39,703 nt of DNA from Candidatus Nealsoniibacteriota bacterium (lineage in GTDB: Bacteria > Patescibacteriota > Minisyncoccia > Minisyncoccales > GWA2-38-27): NCBI GenBank assembly GCA_030616085.1, contig JAUWYA010000005.1:1-39703 (forward strand), in the 5' to 3' direction. The position numbers were made by a program, and so were the translations under genes. Below are positions 6,908 to 30,513 of the stretch, in pieces. How positions within the stretch are numbered: the first letter of the stretch is position 1; each line of letters begins with the position of its first letter. Below the pieces are notes generated by a model. The model was not told the DNA's origin and searched no databases. It worked only from the letters and a program-made list of their open reading frames with translations.

Positions 6908-6964
6908 AATAAATTATCATAGCAGAATAATCAAGATTATGCAATATTGAGATAGAATAAAAAG

Positions 6965-7057
6965 CGAAAAAAACAAGTTTTTCAAATCGTGGGGTTTGGG
7001 CGCGGTGAACTCCAAAGGAGTTCAAAGGGGGAAACGATTTGAAAAATTTCGTTTTCG
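6965..7057. repeat. Structured repeat, copy A (outer stem, conserved G-rich core, apical hairpin)
   Basis: TCGTGGGGTTTGGGCGCGGTGA + GAACTCC-AAA-GGAGTTC hairpin + TCAAAGGGGGAAACGA inside long inverted arms; same core at 29541..29629. Confidence 0.85.
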
Positions 7058-7061
7058 GAGC

Positions 7062-7679
7062 TTAACTCACTTTAAAGCTCTTTCTATGAATTTTACAAAA
7101 ACCACATTGTTTTATTATTTGCCTATGAAGTTTAGTTGGATATCCTTTATGTCTGTCAAAAGCATACTTGGGATATTTCTTATGATATCTTAGCATCATT
7201 CTATCCCTGGTAACCTTAGCCACAATTGAAGCTGCAGCGCAAGAAGAAACTTTTTCATCTGCTTTTATTATTGATTTCTGAGAAACATCTAAATTTATGC
7301 TAAAATTCCCATCAATAAGAAGAAAATCAGCATTTGAACACTTTCTCTCTAAATTCCTTACCGCCCTCCTCATTGCCAACTTTGTTGCTTCAAGAATGTT
7401 AATTCTGTCAATAACCTTTTCTGAAGCTCGTCCTATCCCCCACTCTACGTTTGGATTTTCTTTCAATATTTCATAAATCTCTTCTCGTCTCTTTGGTGTA
7501 AGCTTTTTGGAATCTTTAATTAAAATGGAAGAGAACTGTCCTCTTCCATTCTTAAAACAAACTGCGGCAGCAACTACAGAAGCCGCTAATGGTCCTCTTC
7601 CAACCTCATCAATTCCCACAACTATTTTATATCCCTTTTTCCATAATCTCTTCTCTTCTCTAAAATTAGGGTATTTCAT
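7062..7679 (-). CDS. rnhB: Ribonuclease HII
   Basis: VVGIDEVGRGPLAASVVAAAV; ADEKVSSCAAASIVAKVTRDRMM. Confidence 0.96.
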   Translation of the reverse strand: MKYPNFREEKRLWKKGYKIVVGIDEVGRGPLAASVVAAAVCFKNGRGQFSSILIKDSKKLTPKRREEIYEILKENPNVEWGIGRASEKVIDRINILEATKLAMRRAVRNLERKCSNADFLLIDGNFSINLDVSQKSIIKADEKVSSCAAASIVAKVTRDRMMLRYHKKYPKYAFDRHKGYPTKLHRQIIKQCGFCKIHRKSFKVS

Positions 7680-7783: not shown

Positions 7784-8689
7784 ATGAATAATCAAGAAGA
7801 AAAAAAGACAGAAAAAACAGATGAAACAAAAGATACAACAACAGAAGCAACATCCAAAGATAAAGCAGATGCGCTGGTAGAAAAAACGCTTGCTGAAGAA
7901 GAAGAAAGGAAAAGACAAACAAGATCTAAGATAAAAATAGCTCTTATAGCGATGGGACTATCTTTGCTTTCAATAGTCTGTCTCTATCTGATTGCTTACA
8001 ACAATGTGATAACCAACTTTAATGACATCGCTTGTATCATCCTTGGCAGCATCATTGGTGGCATCCTTGGTGGCATGATTGGTGTTATGATCTTTAATGC
8101 TGGCGCCGTTGGTAGCATCTTCTCTGGTGGCGTCATTGGTAGCGTCATTGGCGGCATCCTTGGTGGCACCAATGGTGCTATCACTGGTTTCATCATTGGT
8201 GGCATCTTTAGTGTCATCACCGATTGCATCATTCGGAATACTATGCATGACATCAAAAAAGAAATTCATCCTGAATTGATAGCTCTTCTAAGTATTGTTT
8301 TTCTCTTACCTTTTGTTACCATATTAGTTCCTCTTTCTAAGTATCACAACCAAAATCAGATAAAGAGAGATACAATAATCTCAGAAGCACACCTTCAAAT
8401 AAAAATTTTGGAAGATGAAATAGAAATTCTCTTGCCAAGCGAGTATGATTCAGATAATTCTTATTTGGAAAAGACTCTTTTTGTTAATTATAGTTGGGAT
8501 ATGGTTGAAGAAAAAGCATGGAAAGATATAGTAATTCCTTGCCGAGAAGGAAATAAATATTGGTATAAGATAAAATTACCATCCCCGGAAAAGAAAACTA
8601 ACACTGTTGATCTTTTTCTGGTCTTCAAGCATGTTTGGGAGAACTATGAAACAACCAAAAAAATCTCTTTTCCAGATCCAAATGAATAA
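7784..8689 (+). CDS. Glycine-zipper membrane protein, paralog 1
   Basis: Charged N-terminus, TM segment, Gly-rich GGILGGMIG...GGVIGSVIGGILGG region, TM, C-terminal domain shared with 8870..9718 (LSKYHNxNQ, LEDxIExLLP, WxDIVIPCREGxKYW, SFPDPNE); GGAAGG upstream. Confidence 0.85.
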   Translation: MNNQEEKKTEKTDETKDTTTEATSKDKADALVEKTLAEEEERKRQTRSKIKIALIAMGLSLLSIVCLYLIAYNNVITNFNDIACIILGSIIGGILGGMIGVMIFNAGAVGSIFSGGVIGSVIGGILGGTNGAITGFIIGGIFSVITDCIIRNTMHDIKKEIHPELIALLSIVFLLPFVTILVPLSKYHNQNQIKRDTIISEAHLQIKILEDEIEILLPSEYDSDNSYLEKTLFVNYSWDMVEEKAWKDIVIPCREGNKYWYKIKLPSPEKKTNTVDLFLVFKHVWENYETTKKISFPDPNE

Positions 8690-8746: not shown

Positions 8747-8775
8747 GTGCTGGCGGTATCGGATACCGCCAGCAC
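8747..8775. repeat. 29-bp palindrome (unit 1)
   Basis: GTGCTGGCGGTAT-CGG-ATACCGCCAGCAC. Confidence 0.9.
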
Positions 8776-8869: not shown

Positions 8870-9718
8870 ATGACAGAAAAAGAAGAAAAAACCAAACCAG
8901 AAGAAAAAAACAAAACAAAGGACACAAAAGAAACAACACATGAAGATGCTATGATAGAAGAAGCGCTTACTAAAGAAGAACCTAAAACAGAACAATCGAA
9001 TAAAGTTCTTCTTAAAGTAGCTATAAAAGAAAAAGGAATAAAAACTGAAACAAAAACCGCTCTGGGAGCAGTAATATTGCTATTGTTTTCACTGCTCTTT
9101 TTATGGATATCTGGCACTCGTAACGATTTAACAGAAAATTTTTCCTTTATTGGCTTTATCGTGGTTAATACTCTTGTCGGTGGTCTATCTTCTCTTCTAA
9201 TAGCTCGCTTTGCGGCCTGGGATAAAAATCAAAGAAGTTTTCTTTTAACTCCCCTGACCATTCTATGGTGTATTTTTTTACTACCTCCTCTTATTGGGAT
9301 AACCCCTCTTTCTAAATATCACAATTATAACCAACTGGAAAGAGATAAAAAGATCGTAGAGGTATTAGAGATAACGGTCTTAGAAGACTACATAGAGGTT
9401 CTCTTACCAAATGAACATGCTTCAGAAAGTTCTTACTTGAAAAAAGTTTTTTCTCTTGGTTTGACGAACGACACAAAAGAAATGTGGGAAGATATAGTAA
9501 TCCCATGCCGAGAAGGAGATAAATACTGGCACAAGGTAAAATTACCACTCCCGAACTGGTATAAATTGAAACTGGCTGGACGTCCGGTATCTTGGACACC
9601 AACACAAGAAAAGGATAAATATAAGAACAACACTGATAATATTTTCTTATTTTTTGATCATGCCTTTAAGGATTATGAAACAACCAAAGAAATTATTTTT
9701 CCAGATCCAAATGAATAA
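8870..9718 (+). CDS. Membrane protein, paralog 2 (no glycine zipper)
   Basis: Same C-terminal domain and N-terminal charged/TM architecture as 7784..8689; GGAAAGG upstream. Confidence 0.85.
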   Translation: MTEKEEKTKPEEKNKTKDTKETTHEDAMIEEALTKEEPKTEQSNKVLLKVAIKEKGIKTETKTALGAVILLLFSLLFLWISGTRNDLTENFSFIGFIVVNTLVGGLSSLLIARFAAWDKNQRSFLLTPLTILWCIFLLPPLIGITPLSKYHNYNQLERDKKIVEVLEITVLEDYIEVLLPNEHASESSYLKKVFSLGLTNDTKEMWEDIVIPCREGDKYWHKVKLPLPNWYKLKLAGRPVSWTPTQEKDKYKNNTDNIFLFFDHAFKDYETTKEIIFPDPNE

Positions 9719-9775: not shown

Positions 9776-9804
9776 GTGCTGGCGGTATCCGATACCGCCA
9801 GCAC
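9776..9804. repeat. 29-bp palindrome (unit 2)
   Basis: GTGCTGGCGGTAT-CCG-ATACCGCCAGCAC; exact reverse complement of the unit 1 palindrome. Confidence 0.9.
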
Positions 9805-27532: not shown

Positions 27533-29533
27533 TTAACGCCTTACTTCCCAATCTGGGCTCCTTTCCAAAGTTTTAATTATTTTATTCTGAATTTTATCAA
27601 TTTCCTCTGACTTTAAAGTTTTATCCTCTGCCTGATAAACTATGTGAAATGCTAAATTCTTCTTTCCTTGAGGAATACCCTCTCCCTCATAAATATCAAA
27701 AAGGTCAACATCTCTGACTAAAACACCTCCAGCAGTATTAATTTCATTCAATACATCTACAACTTTAATATTTAATGGCACTAAAATTGCCAGATCACGA
27801 ACAGCTGCCGGATATTGAGAAATTGGCTGATACTCATGCTCTTCTGAACAAATCTTTGTTAATTTCTCAAAATCAATATCAAATACAACCACATTAATTT
27901 CTTTTAATACTTTTGAAGAAATCTCTCCTAAAAAACCAACCTCTTGTGAATCAACCTTAATCTCAGCGCTTTTCCCTTTTTGCCAAATAGAAATCTTACT
28001 CTGTTCAGGAGTTGGCTTATGCTCATCATACCAAACATTGCTTATTCCAAGCTTATTCATCAATAAATCAACTATTCCTTTTAATCTATAGAATTCATCC
28101 TTTCCTTTTTTCTGAGCAATTAACCCAGTAAGCATCTTTTTCTCTTCAGCTTCTCCAGCTTGTTTCTTAATAAATGTTTTCCCTGTCTCAAAGATCTTAA
28201 TTTCATCAAAATATCTAAAATTATCTTTTAGATTCTTTAACATATTGGGAATCAAACTTGGTCTTAAATATTTTTGCTCCGAGCTCATTGGATTCTCCAT
28301 TTCAATAGCTTCCTTAAAAGTCTCAACTTCTTTCTCACCAATAAAAGAGTAATTATATACTTCTGTAAACCCAGCTTCTTTTAAAATATCTTTGACACAA
28401 TTCTCCCAGAAAATCTCAAGGTTTCTTTTCGGAGGAATCAAAGAAACAACTGGAAAAGTAGAAGGTATTTTCTCATATCCATAAATCCTGCCAATCTCTT
28501 CAATCAAATCTTCTTGTGAAGAAACATCTAATCTGAAGGTAGGAACTTCTACGATATTCCCTTTATATTTAAATTCTAATCTCTCAAAGATATTTTTTAT
28601 TTCTTTTGTAGAAATCTTTATTCCTAATAATTTTTCAACATAGCTTAAATCTAATTTAATCTTTTTAGGTTGAACTTTTTTAGGATAAAGATCAATTATC
28701 TGAACTATTTTACCTCCACCAAGCTTGGTTAAAAGAAAATATGTTCTTTCTAGCGTAGAGATTGTTAAATTTGGATCTATTCCCTGAGAATATACATTTG
28801 ATGCTTCGGTTCGATGATTTAATTTTTTTACAGCTTTATAAATTGTCTGCCTATCGAAATTCCCTGCTTGCAACACAATGTTTTTTGTCTTTGAATCTAT
28901 TTCAGTTAACTTTCCACCCATAATACCAACTAAATCAATCAACCTGTTTTTGTCTTCAATAACAAGCATTCCCCTATCTAAAGTATGGCTGCTGTCATCC
29001 AAAGTAACTATTCTCTCTCCTTTTTTTGACTCTCGTAAATTCATCTGATGGCCTTGAATTTTATCATAATCAAAAGCATGTAAAGGTTGGCCTATTTCCA
29101 ACATTACATAGTTAGTCAAATCAACAATATTATTTATAGAACGAAGACCCACTGATTTTATCTTTTCTTTTAACCATTTTGGAGACGAACCTACCTTTAC
29201 TCCCTCTACTACTATTGCTGAATAACGAGGAACCAGCTTACGGCATTTAATTTTCAAGTTAATTAACCCGATTTCGCCTTTTTCTTTTTTTAATCTTTTT
29301 CTTTTCAATGGCTCTAAATCTTTATCCAATATAGCTGATATTTCTCTAGCCACTCCCCAATGAGACAAACAATCATGACCCCTATTTGACAATACATCAA
29401 TATCTAAAGTATGATCCCTGCCAACTTTTTTAACTTGCTCTACTTCAAAGCTATGCATAGTCAAAACCTCTGCCAGGTTTTCTGGCTTAGGCAATTTAAC
29501 ATATTCTTTTAGCCAATTATATGAAAATAACAT
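27533..29533 (-). CDS. pheT: Phenylalanyl-tRNA synthetase beta subunit
   Basis: SYNWLKEYVKLP; NIVDLTNYVMLEIGQPLHAFDYDKI; B5 and FDX-ACB regions. Confidence 0.97.
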   Translation of the reverse strand: MLFSYNWLKEYVKLPKPENLAEVLTMHSFEVEQVKKVGRDHTLDIDVLSNRGHDCLSHWGVAREISAILDKDLEPLKRKRLKKEKGEIGLINLKIKCRKLVPRYSAIVVEGVKVGSSPKWLKEKIKSVGLRSINNIVDLTNYVMLEIGQPLHAFDYDKIQGHQMNLRESKKGERIVTLDDSSHTLDRGMLVIEDKNRLIDLVGIMGGKLTEIDSKTKNIVLQAGNFDRQTIYKAVKKLNHRTEASNVYSQGIDPNLTISTLERTYFLLTKLGGGKIVQIIDLYPKKVQPKKIKLDLSYVEKLLGIKISTKEIKNIFERLEFKYKGNIVEVPTFRLDVSSQEDLIEEIGRIYGYEKIPSTFPVVSLIPPKRNLEIFWENCVKDILKEAGFTEVYNYSFIGEKEVETFKEAIEMENPMSSEQKYLRPSLIPNMLKNLKDNFRYFDEIKIFETGKTFIKKQAGEAEEKKMLTGLIAQKKGKDEFYRLKGIVDLLMNKLGISNVWYDEHKPTPEQSKISIWQKGKSAEIKVDSQEVGFLGEISSKVLKEINVVVFDIDFEKLTKICSEEHEYQPISQYPAAVRDLAILVPLNIKVVDVLNEINTAGGVLVRDVDLFDIYEGEGIPQGKKNLAFHIVYQAEDKTLKSEEIDKIQNKIIKTLERSPDWEVRR

Positions 29534-29540
29534 AACTGTA

Positions 29541-29629
29541 AGAAAACAAATTTTTAAATCGTGGGGTTTGGGCGCGGTGATTCCCGAAGGGAATCAAAGG
29601 GGGAAACGATTTTAAAAATTTCGTTTTCT
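29541..29629. repeat. Structured repeat, copy B
   Basis: Same core as copy A with a different but paired apical hairpin GATTCCC-GAA-GGGAATC. Confidence 0.85.
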
Positions 29630-29634
29630 GAAAG

Positions 29635-30513
29635 TTAAAATTGCTTAAGAAACCTTGAATCTCCTGAATAAAACAATCTAATATCATCTACCTTATACTT
29701 CATCATAGCTAATCTATCTAGTCCTACTCCAAAAGCAAACCCCTGCCAATTCTTAGGATTAATACCTCCTGCTTTTAAAACATTCGGGTGAACCATTCCT
29801 GCTCCAATTATCTCTACCCAACATCTTTTTGAACAAACACTGCATCCTTTTTCATTACAAACTAAACAAGTCATATCTACTTCAAAACTTGGTTCAGTAA
29901 ATGGAAAAAAGCTTGGCCTTAAACGGGCCTTAACTTTCTTTCCAAAAAACCTTGAAAGAAACTCTTCAATAATTGCTTTAAAATTAGCTGCTGAAATATC
30001 TTTTCCAACCATTAATCCTTCTACCTGATAAAAATTAATCTCGTGGCTGGCATCAGTCGCTTCATGCCTAAAAATCCTGCCTGGAACAATAATTCTAAAC
30101 GGCGGCTGATGTTTTTCCATATAACGAATTTGAACAGGCGAAGTATGAGTCCTTAATAACAATTTTGAATTTTGCTGGACGCGAAGCGGACTCCCCGGAG
30201 GATTGCTTTTGAATTTTGAATTTGTTTGTAATTTGTTATTTGTTATTTGGAATTTCTGGTTGTTTTTCAACCAGAATGTGTCCCACATATCTCTTGCAGG
30301 ATGATCTTTTGGAATATTTAAAGCATCAAAGTTATACCATTCGTTTTCAATCTCAGGACCATCAATCACTGAAAAACCCATTGCCTGAAAAATCTCTTCA
30401 ACTTCTCTCTTAACCAAAGTCAAAGGATGCAAATGCCCAATTTCATGCTTTTCTCCAGGCACTGTTACATCAAATGTATCCTTTTTTGTTTCAATTTTAA
30501 GAGGCTTTAGCAT
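29635..30513 (-). CDS. pheS: Phenylalanyl-tRNA synthetase alpha subunit with ~30-aa insertion
   Basis: [51 protein letters not shown]; insertion between them. Confidence 0.97.

Follow-up and report, generated by a model that had tools for sequence, protein, structure and literature searches.

A hairpin insertion between pheS and pheT belongs to a dispersed, probably mobile repeat family seen in Parcubacteria

Introduction

MITEs and the palindrome-associated IS derivatives are short non-autonomous insertions with inverted repeats. At integron attC sites it is the bottom strand that folds, behind the stop codon of a gene, and the structure is kept while the sequence varies. REP and REPIN sequences of the RAYT (TnpA_REP) type are small extragenic palindromes, several per genome, that form strand-specific imperfect hairpins and are non-autonomous and patchily distributed (PMC3116915, PMC8266576). 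Hairpins may also be reshaped in place: template switching between the arms of an inverted repeat, as in the minute inversions of chloroplasts and in inverted repeats of yeast (PMC8604942), homogenises the arms and inverts the spacer, and it can create "compensatory" changes in RNA stems (PMC8794818).

Here we analyse a repeat of about 100 nt that lies between pheS and pheT in a window of 39,703 nt (contig JAUWYA010000005.1, Candidatus Nealsoniibacteriota; host genome G000, 740 kb; G, C and L numbers denote genomes, contigs and loci). It has the listed traits of REP and REPIN sequences; it is a short non-autonomous insertion with inverted repeats, cleanly inserted at all of the 11 loci compared with the relative G006, as a MITE would be; the strand that appears to fold is antisense, past a stop codon, and keeps its structure despite sequence change, as in attC; and its arms are homogenised and its spacer is inverted in place, as in hairpin-loop inversions. 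It differs from each of them as well. REPs measure 20-40 nt, whereas the element is some 100 nt long, carries no GTAG-like tag at the foot, has a conserved G-rich inner core and no linked RAYT, occurs in about ten copies per genome and shows core inversion at orthologous sites. Unlike in MITEs, the inner core and not the ends is most conserved, no target-site duplication has been established, and no cognate autonomous element was found. Unlike attC, it lies as single copies inside housekeeping operons, with no R boxes, integrase or cassette arrays, and, in contrast to the hairpin-loop inversions, the spacer here is the conserved multi-copy core of a dispersed bacterial repeat family. Our main reading, to which we assign a probability of roughly 0.65, is that the element is a dispersed mobile DNA hairpin, non-autonomous and similar to REPINs and MITEs, which is recognised in its folded, single-stranded DNA form.

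Results

Anatomy of the element

The pheS-pheT copy scored 106.3 bits with the covariance model R1, built from 8 copies of G000, and 98.5 bits with the model R2, built from 32 copies. Its limits are approximately 29532-29638 if the AACT/AGTT foot is counted, which is slightly wider than the 29541-29629 given in the earlier note. On the + strand, from the outside inwards, there are a short foot, which reads AGC..GCT in most copies and AACT..AGTT at pheS-pheT, a 3x3 purine loop, commonly GAA/GGA, in which sheared G.A pairs may form, a stem of some 22 bp in which one C is bulged, the core, and an apical hairpin (Table 1). The fixed core is GGGGTTTGGGCGCGG ... AAGGGGGAA; the letters of its 5' side are identical in nearly all G000 copies, and the order of its G tracts is the same in relatives. 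The apical hairpin has the triloop GAA or AAA, the latter in the second window copy (TGAACTCC-AAA-GGAGTTCA). The general anatomy of the family is one of self-complementary arms of about 28 bp flanking a fixed, one-sided G-rich core, usually with a further hairpin inside. The pheS-pheT copy is far more stable than its shuffles (DNA z = -5.7 on the + strand and -5.3 on the - strand; RNA z = -6.0 on the - strand), with 0 of 200 shuffles being as stable.

Both copies noted earlier in the window are real, with the letters as quoted, and TCGTGGGGTTTGGGCGCGGTGA occurs there exactly twice, against zero occurrences expected from shuffles, but the count of two was too low, as the genome has 11. It is also true that no Shine-Dalgarno sequence separates the element from the pheT ATG, yet the short pheS-pheT gap of the element-free relatives is equally devoid of one.

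Table 1. Features of the window and orthologous element-bearing sites
Feature	Position or loci	Strand	Evidence and remarks
Element copy between pheS and pheT	~29536-29634	+ (G-rich, apparently folded strand)	Covariance model matches, fold z-scores, syntenic empty site
5' arm of outer stem, AGAAAACAAATTTTTAAATCG	29542..29562	+	Pairs with 3' arm; covariation in alignment A5
G-rich core, 5' side, GGGGTTTGGGCGCGG, preceded by T	29563..29577	+	Sequence comparison of copies
Variable apical hairpin TGATTCCC-GAA-GGGAATCA within core	29578..29596	+	Sequence, fold
G-rich core, 3' side, AAGGGGGAA	29597..29605	+	Sequence comparison
3' arm of outer stem, CGATTTTAAAAATTTCGTTTTCT, one bulged C	29607..29629	+	Pairing with 5' arm; covariation
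pheS, upstream gene	29635..30513	-	PF01409; stop codon abuts element
pheT, downstream gene	27533..29533	-	PF03483, PF03484, PF17759, PF03147
Second element copy, between rnhB and rpmF	6963..7062	+	R1, 119.9 bits; neighbours RNase HII and L32
Orthologous pairs with inverted core	L068/L083, L131/L085, L072/L221, L074/L205, L202/L212		Flank comparison
Orthologous pair with same orientation, more distant	L079/L213		Flank comparison

Family size and distribution

More than 100 copies were collected and, among the genomes searched, the family was seen only in Parcubacteria. By covariance model search, it is present in 13 of the 247 genomes of the order and in 18 of the 387 genomes of the class sample, while the phylum sample (n = 384, E 1e-4) yielded no copies outside the class. 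An exact search for one core type through 85,462 species returned 29 contigs, all of them titled Parcubacteria (Nomurabacteria, Tagabacteria, Azambacteria and others) or unnamed bacteria. About ten copies each were found in G000, G057, G062 and G484, some of the G484-search matches being a single copy matched on both strands. The covariance model search found no copy in G001, a relative of the same genus. The distribution of the family is patchy.

The comparison with Rfam proposed in the earlier note matched no element at the gathering threshold in the window, and the Rfam 15 covariance models gave only sub-threshold matches (E of 0.7 or more) that overlap or adjoin elements outside it. There was no meaningful match to the element in phage and plasmid collections, no match to the one core type searched in viral contigs, and no relevant description of the family in the literature on palindromes or repeats of Parcubacteria. 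The repeat family apparently was undescribed before.

Reduced and altered copies also occur. L012 (G007) is a truncated half element and L041 (G151) a stem without the core, both likely deletion relics. An autonomous long version with an internal gene was considered for L012 and rejected, as the half-copy is a truncation beside a response-regulator gene, and the 3-kb locus holds no second half. In L035, L056, L058 and L054 (G157, G227) the G.A foot and the AT-rich stem are shared, and a nested ordinary stem replaces the G-rich core.

Comparison with known single-stranded DNA systems

The element could in principle be a member of a known system acting on single-stranded DNA, as a REP of RAYT, as a derivative of IS200/IS605 or as an integron attC site. 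In agreement with this, its hairpins are extragenic and strand-specific, contain mismatches and a bulge, and lie past stop codons, the strand that folds being antisense to the gene, which is also the case in attC. We regard such membership as very improbable, however, given the missing hallmarks. There is no conserved tetranucleotide of the REP type (GTAG/CGTC) 5' of the foot, where the triplets vary (AGC, AAC, TGC, CGC, GGC and others); the attC R boxes RYYYAAC / GTTRRRY are absent from the ends, the terminal bases of which vary and are most often AGC/GCT. No TnpA is linked to the copies: no R2 match lies around the 18 Y1_Tnp genes, no relatives of the three Y1 proteins of G000 lie near the element copies examined, and 3 of the 12 bearing genomes, which are incomplete, have no Y1_Tnp match at all. 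RAYT/IS200 as the mobiliser was rejected on this lack of linkage. The integron integrase (TIGR02249) scored over the cut-off in 0 of 14 genomes, sub-threshold matches being found in all 14 control genomes too, and there are no cassette arrays.

G000 contains other repeats and insertions. The palindrome CTGGCGGTATCGGATACCGCCAG (window positions 8747-8775 and 9776-9804; L015) also surrounds a RAYT-like Y1 transposase gene on G000:C1, and the two apparently constitute a separate REP/RAYT system of this genome. At L001 and L014 (the end of C8 and the start of C10), one element copy is separated by a few bases from the end of an IS200-like insertion sequence. Within the window, the two contig ends (893-1056 and 39540-39703) form a 164-nt inverted repeat, 92% complementary; an intergenic 73-nt direct repeat, 95% identical, is located at 1379-1451 and 2182-2254; and the neighbouring ORFs at 7784-8689 and 8870-9718 are related, the first having a 12-nt periodic repeat at 8011-8244.

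Insertion sites and orientation

For all 11 G000 loci, the copy at 6963..7062 included, G006 has a syntenic counterpart without the element. The pheS homologues of G006, G001, G009 and G008 are 67-78% identical, and in element-free relatives the pheS-pheT junction reads TAATATG (G006), TAAGTATG or TAAATCAGATTATG. The element is an insertion into the pheS-pheT gap, and the suggestion that a repeat had split pheST is borne out. In several G000 copies the stop codon is completed by the terminal AGCT of the element (T|AG, TG|A, TA|A). No consistent target-site duplication was seen, the flanks being too diverged from G006 for certainty. In G001, the same pheS-pheT gap contains an inserted gene of about 800 nt (L102), with a prepilin-like start and a LamG-like body as judged by eye.

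The copies are dispersed, mostly just past the stop codons of unrelated genes, with the G strand antisense. In 64 of 82 copies the right-hand gene is on the opposite strand and ends towards the element, at a median distance of 7.5 nt, and in tandem gene pairs the orientation is biased 49 to 8 (23 to 0 in G000, G057 and G062), the gene calls behind these orientation counts being home-made ORF picks, a few of them doubtful. As two G062 copies only 8.5 kb apart point in opposite directions, each following its own genes, the replication strand is an unlikely cause of the bias. That copies follow the gene direction in some genomes would be compatible with transcription-coupled insertion as well as with selection acting against the G strand in mRNA.

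Hairpins of E. coli REPs can protect or end the upstream transcript, and the element might similarly be a functional intercistronic or 3'-UTR RNA hairpin, kept by structural selection. The position past stop codons, the orientation bias and the persistence at orthologous sites speak for this alternative, as does the strong covariation described below. On the other hand, it is the antisense strand whose fold is conserved, a search for an intrinsic terminator (a GC-rich hairpin with a U tract) at 29300-29900 gave none, most relatives lack the element at the same operons, and 2 of the 11 G000 copies (C10, C28) are upstream of genes rather than downstream.

Covariation and the folded strand

When 32 copies were aligned to R1, standard pairs occupied 94.5% of the pair cells, compared to 79.0 +/- 0.7% in shuffled and 27-58% in slid alignments, both partners had changed in 26 of the 33 pairs, and the covariation score was 0.348 versus 0.113; as the alignment was fitted to the R1 model, the pairing and covariation figures are favoured by it. 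These values agree with the earlier description of a structure whose core is fixed and whose stems covary. In Nomurabacteria the search pattern fixed the core as TAGGTGTGGGCGCGC..AGGGATAAG, and the arms are about 28 bp long; their outer 16 bases are only 37% alike between copies, yet pairing is nearly full. The arms thus co-evolve.

The pairs carry a strand-specific folding signal. Outside the foot loop, G.U pairs on the + strand outnumber A.C pairs 56 to 15 among 82 copies and 17 to 5 among the Nomurabacteria copies, A.C being G.U on the other strand; the p-values are approximate, since the copies are related, and strand-biased mutation could contribute. Because of this excess of G.U, the G-rich (+) strand appears, judging from the sequences, to be the one whose folding matters.

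Core types include GGGGTTTGGGCGCGG..AAGGGGG and AGGTGTGGGCGCGC..AGGGATAAG. The variable hairpin follows GGGCGCGG in most genomes and precedes it in several G057 copies, the order of the G tracts being unchanged, and L133 and L135 (650-780) have an extra hairpin in the first core loop besides the usual one.

Inverted cores at orthologous sites

Comparison of the flanks of 106 copies revealed six orthologous element-bearing sites. The core is inverted relative to the flanks at five of them and has the same orientation at one (Table 1). In the pair L202/L212, identity is 74% and 86% in the aligned flanks and 97% over 71 nt in the core plus inner arms; the outer sequence differs in both arms, mostly by transitions. 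At orthologous sites of other species the arms have changed with pairing kept, while the cores at sites common to species are 75-97% alike. Flipped cores between changed but still paired arms fit template switching between inverted-repeat arms.

These pairs bear on the RNA alternative introduced above. The reversal of an asymmetric core is not easily tolerated by an mRNA element, hence the inversion relative to the flanking genes at five orthologous sites disfavours an mRNA function, and altogether we consider an RNA hairpin serving the upstream transcript rather unlikely. The narrower proposal of an RNA element acting on pheT is not supported, the 11 loci having unrelated neighbour genes, the conserved fold being antisense to pheST, and the core being flipped in orthologues. 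The further homologues with compensatory changes that the earlier note called for do exist; they do not prove an RNA function, since template switching yields them too (PMC8604942, PMC8794818). For the same reason, covariation alone is no argument for an RNA function, and we read it as partly mutational and partly due to selection for folding of the G strand.

G tracts and a possible quadruplex

The + strand could also act as a G-quadruplex signal, with a hairpin-capped quadruplex on the template strand that would stall polymerases or bind a protein. This would account for the order of the G tracts being kept while the hairpins shift between loops, and four GG tracts are found in 81 of the 105 cores, as well as in all the inspected hairpin-less cores (L037, which has GGGTGGTGGGTGGG, L053, L057, L062 and L079). 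Conversely, 24 of the 105 cores lack four GG tracts, so a universal quadruplex was rejected; in the G157/G227 variants a plain nested stem occurs instead, and the AGGTGTGGGCGNGC core type reaches four G tracts only if an interrupted one is counted. A quadruplex-prone + strand, as suggested earlier, is possible, but a large subtype has only three tracts plus an interrupted GNG, and as an explanation of the family we find the quadruplex improbable.

Discussion

The mobile DNA hairpin remains our preferred explanation. It is supported by 11 near-identical copies at unrelated loci of G000, by the patchy distribution, by the element-free counterparts of all 11 loci in G006, by the excess of G.U over A.C on the + strand, by the five orthologous sites with an inverted core against one without, and by the Nomurabacteria arms that differ between copies and still pair; no linked transposase or recombinase and no established target-site duplication count against it. 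The long persistence at orthologous sites could also mean a host function, and the strong orientation bias of some genomes is not explained by mobility alone.

We suggest that the folded G-rich single strand would be recognised by a putative strand-specific DNA enzyme acting in trans, with the purine-rich G.A foot of many copies, the G-rich core and the small hairpin as candidate recognition features. Copies would persist mainly just past stop codons, where they presumably do least harm. After insertion, template switching between the arms during replication would maintain their complementarity and sometimes flip the core. The pheST copy would then be a passive spacer of about 100 nt rather than a dedicated regulator, although, as a side effect, the coupling of pheS and pheT may be weakened.

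A more specific version is possible, though we hold it only tentatively: Parcubacteria may have an undescribed system, mobile or host-domesticated, with an enzyme whose substrate is a G-rich single-stranded DNA hairpin in its folded state, possibly capped by a quadruplex. This enzyme would place the hairpin behind stop codons, oriented with transcription, and would be able to turn the core around at the site. If so, the DNA hairpin would be invertible, its core being conserved and its arms renewable.

Most likely, the role of the element at pheST is the ordinary one of an insertion, and the interest lies in the family and not in pheT regulation. Mobile DNA has been charted poorly in the small-genome Candidate Phyla Radiation. 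Should a strand-specific enzyme exist, it could be searched for through the genomes that have about ten copies each. The family also provides a clear warning from bacteria. When a repeated hairpin shows compensatory changes, these need not point to a functional RNA, since template switching from arm to arm can make them, and here it is the flipped cores that betray it.
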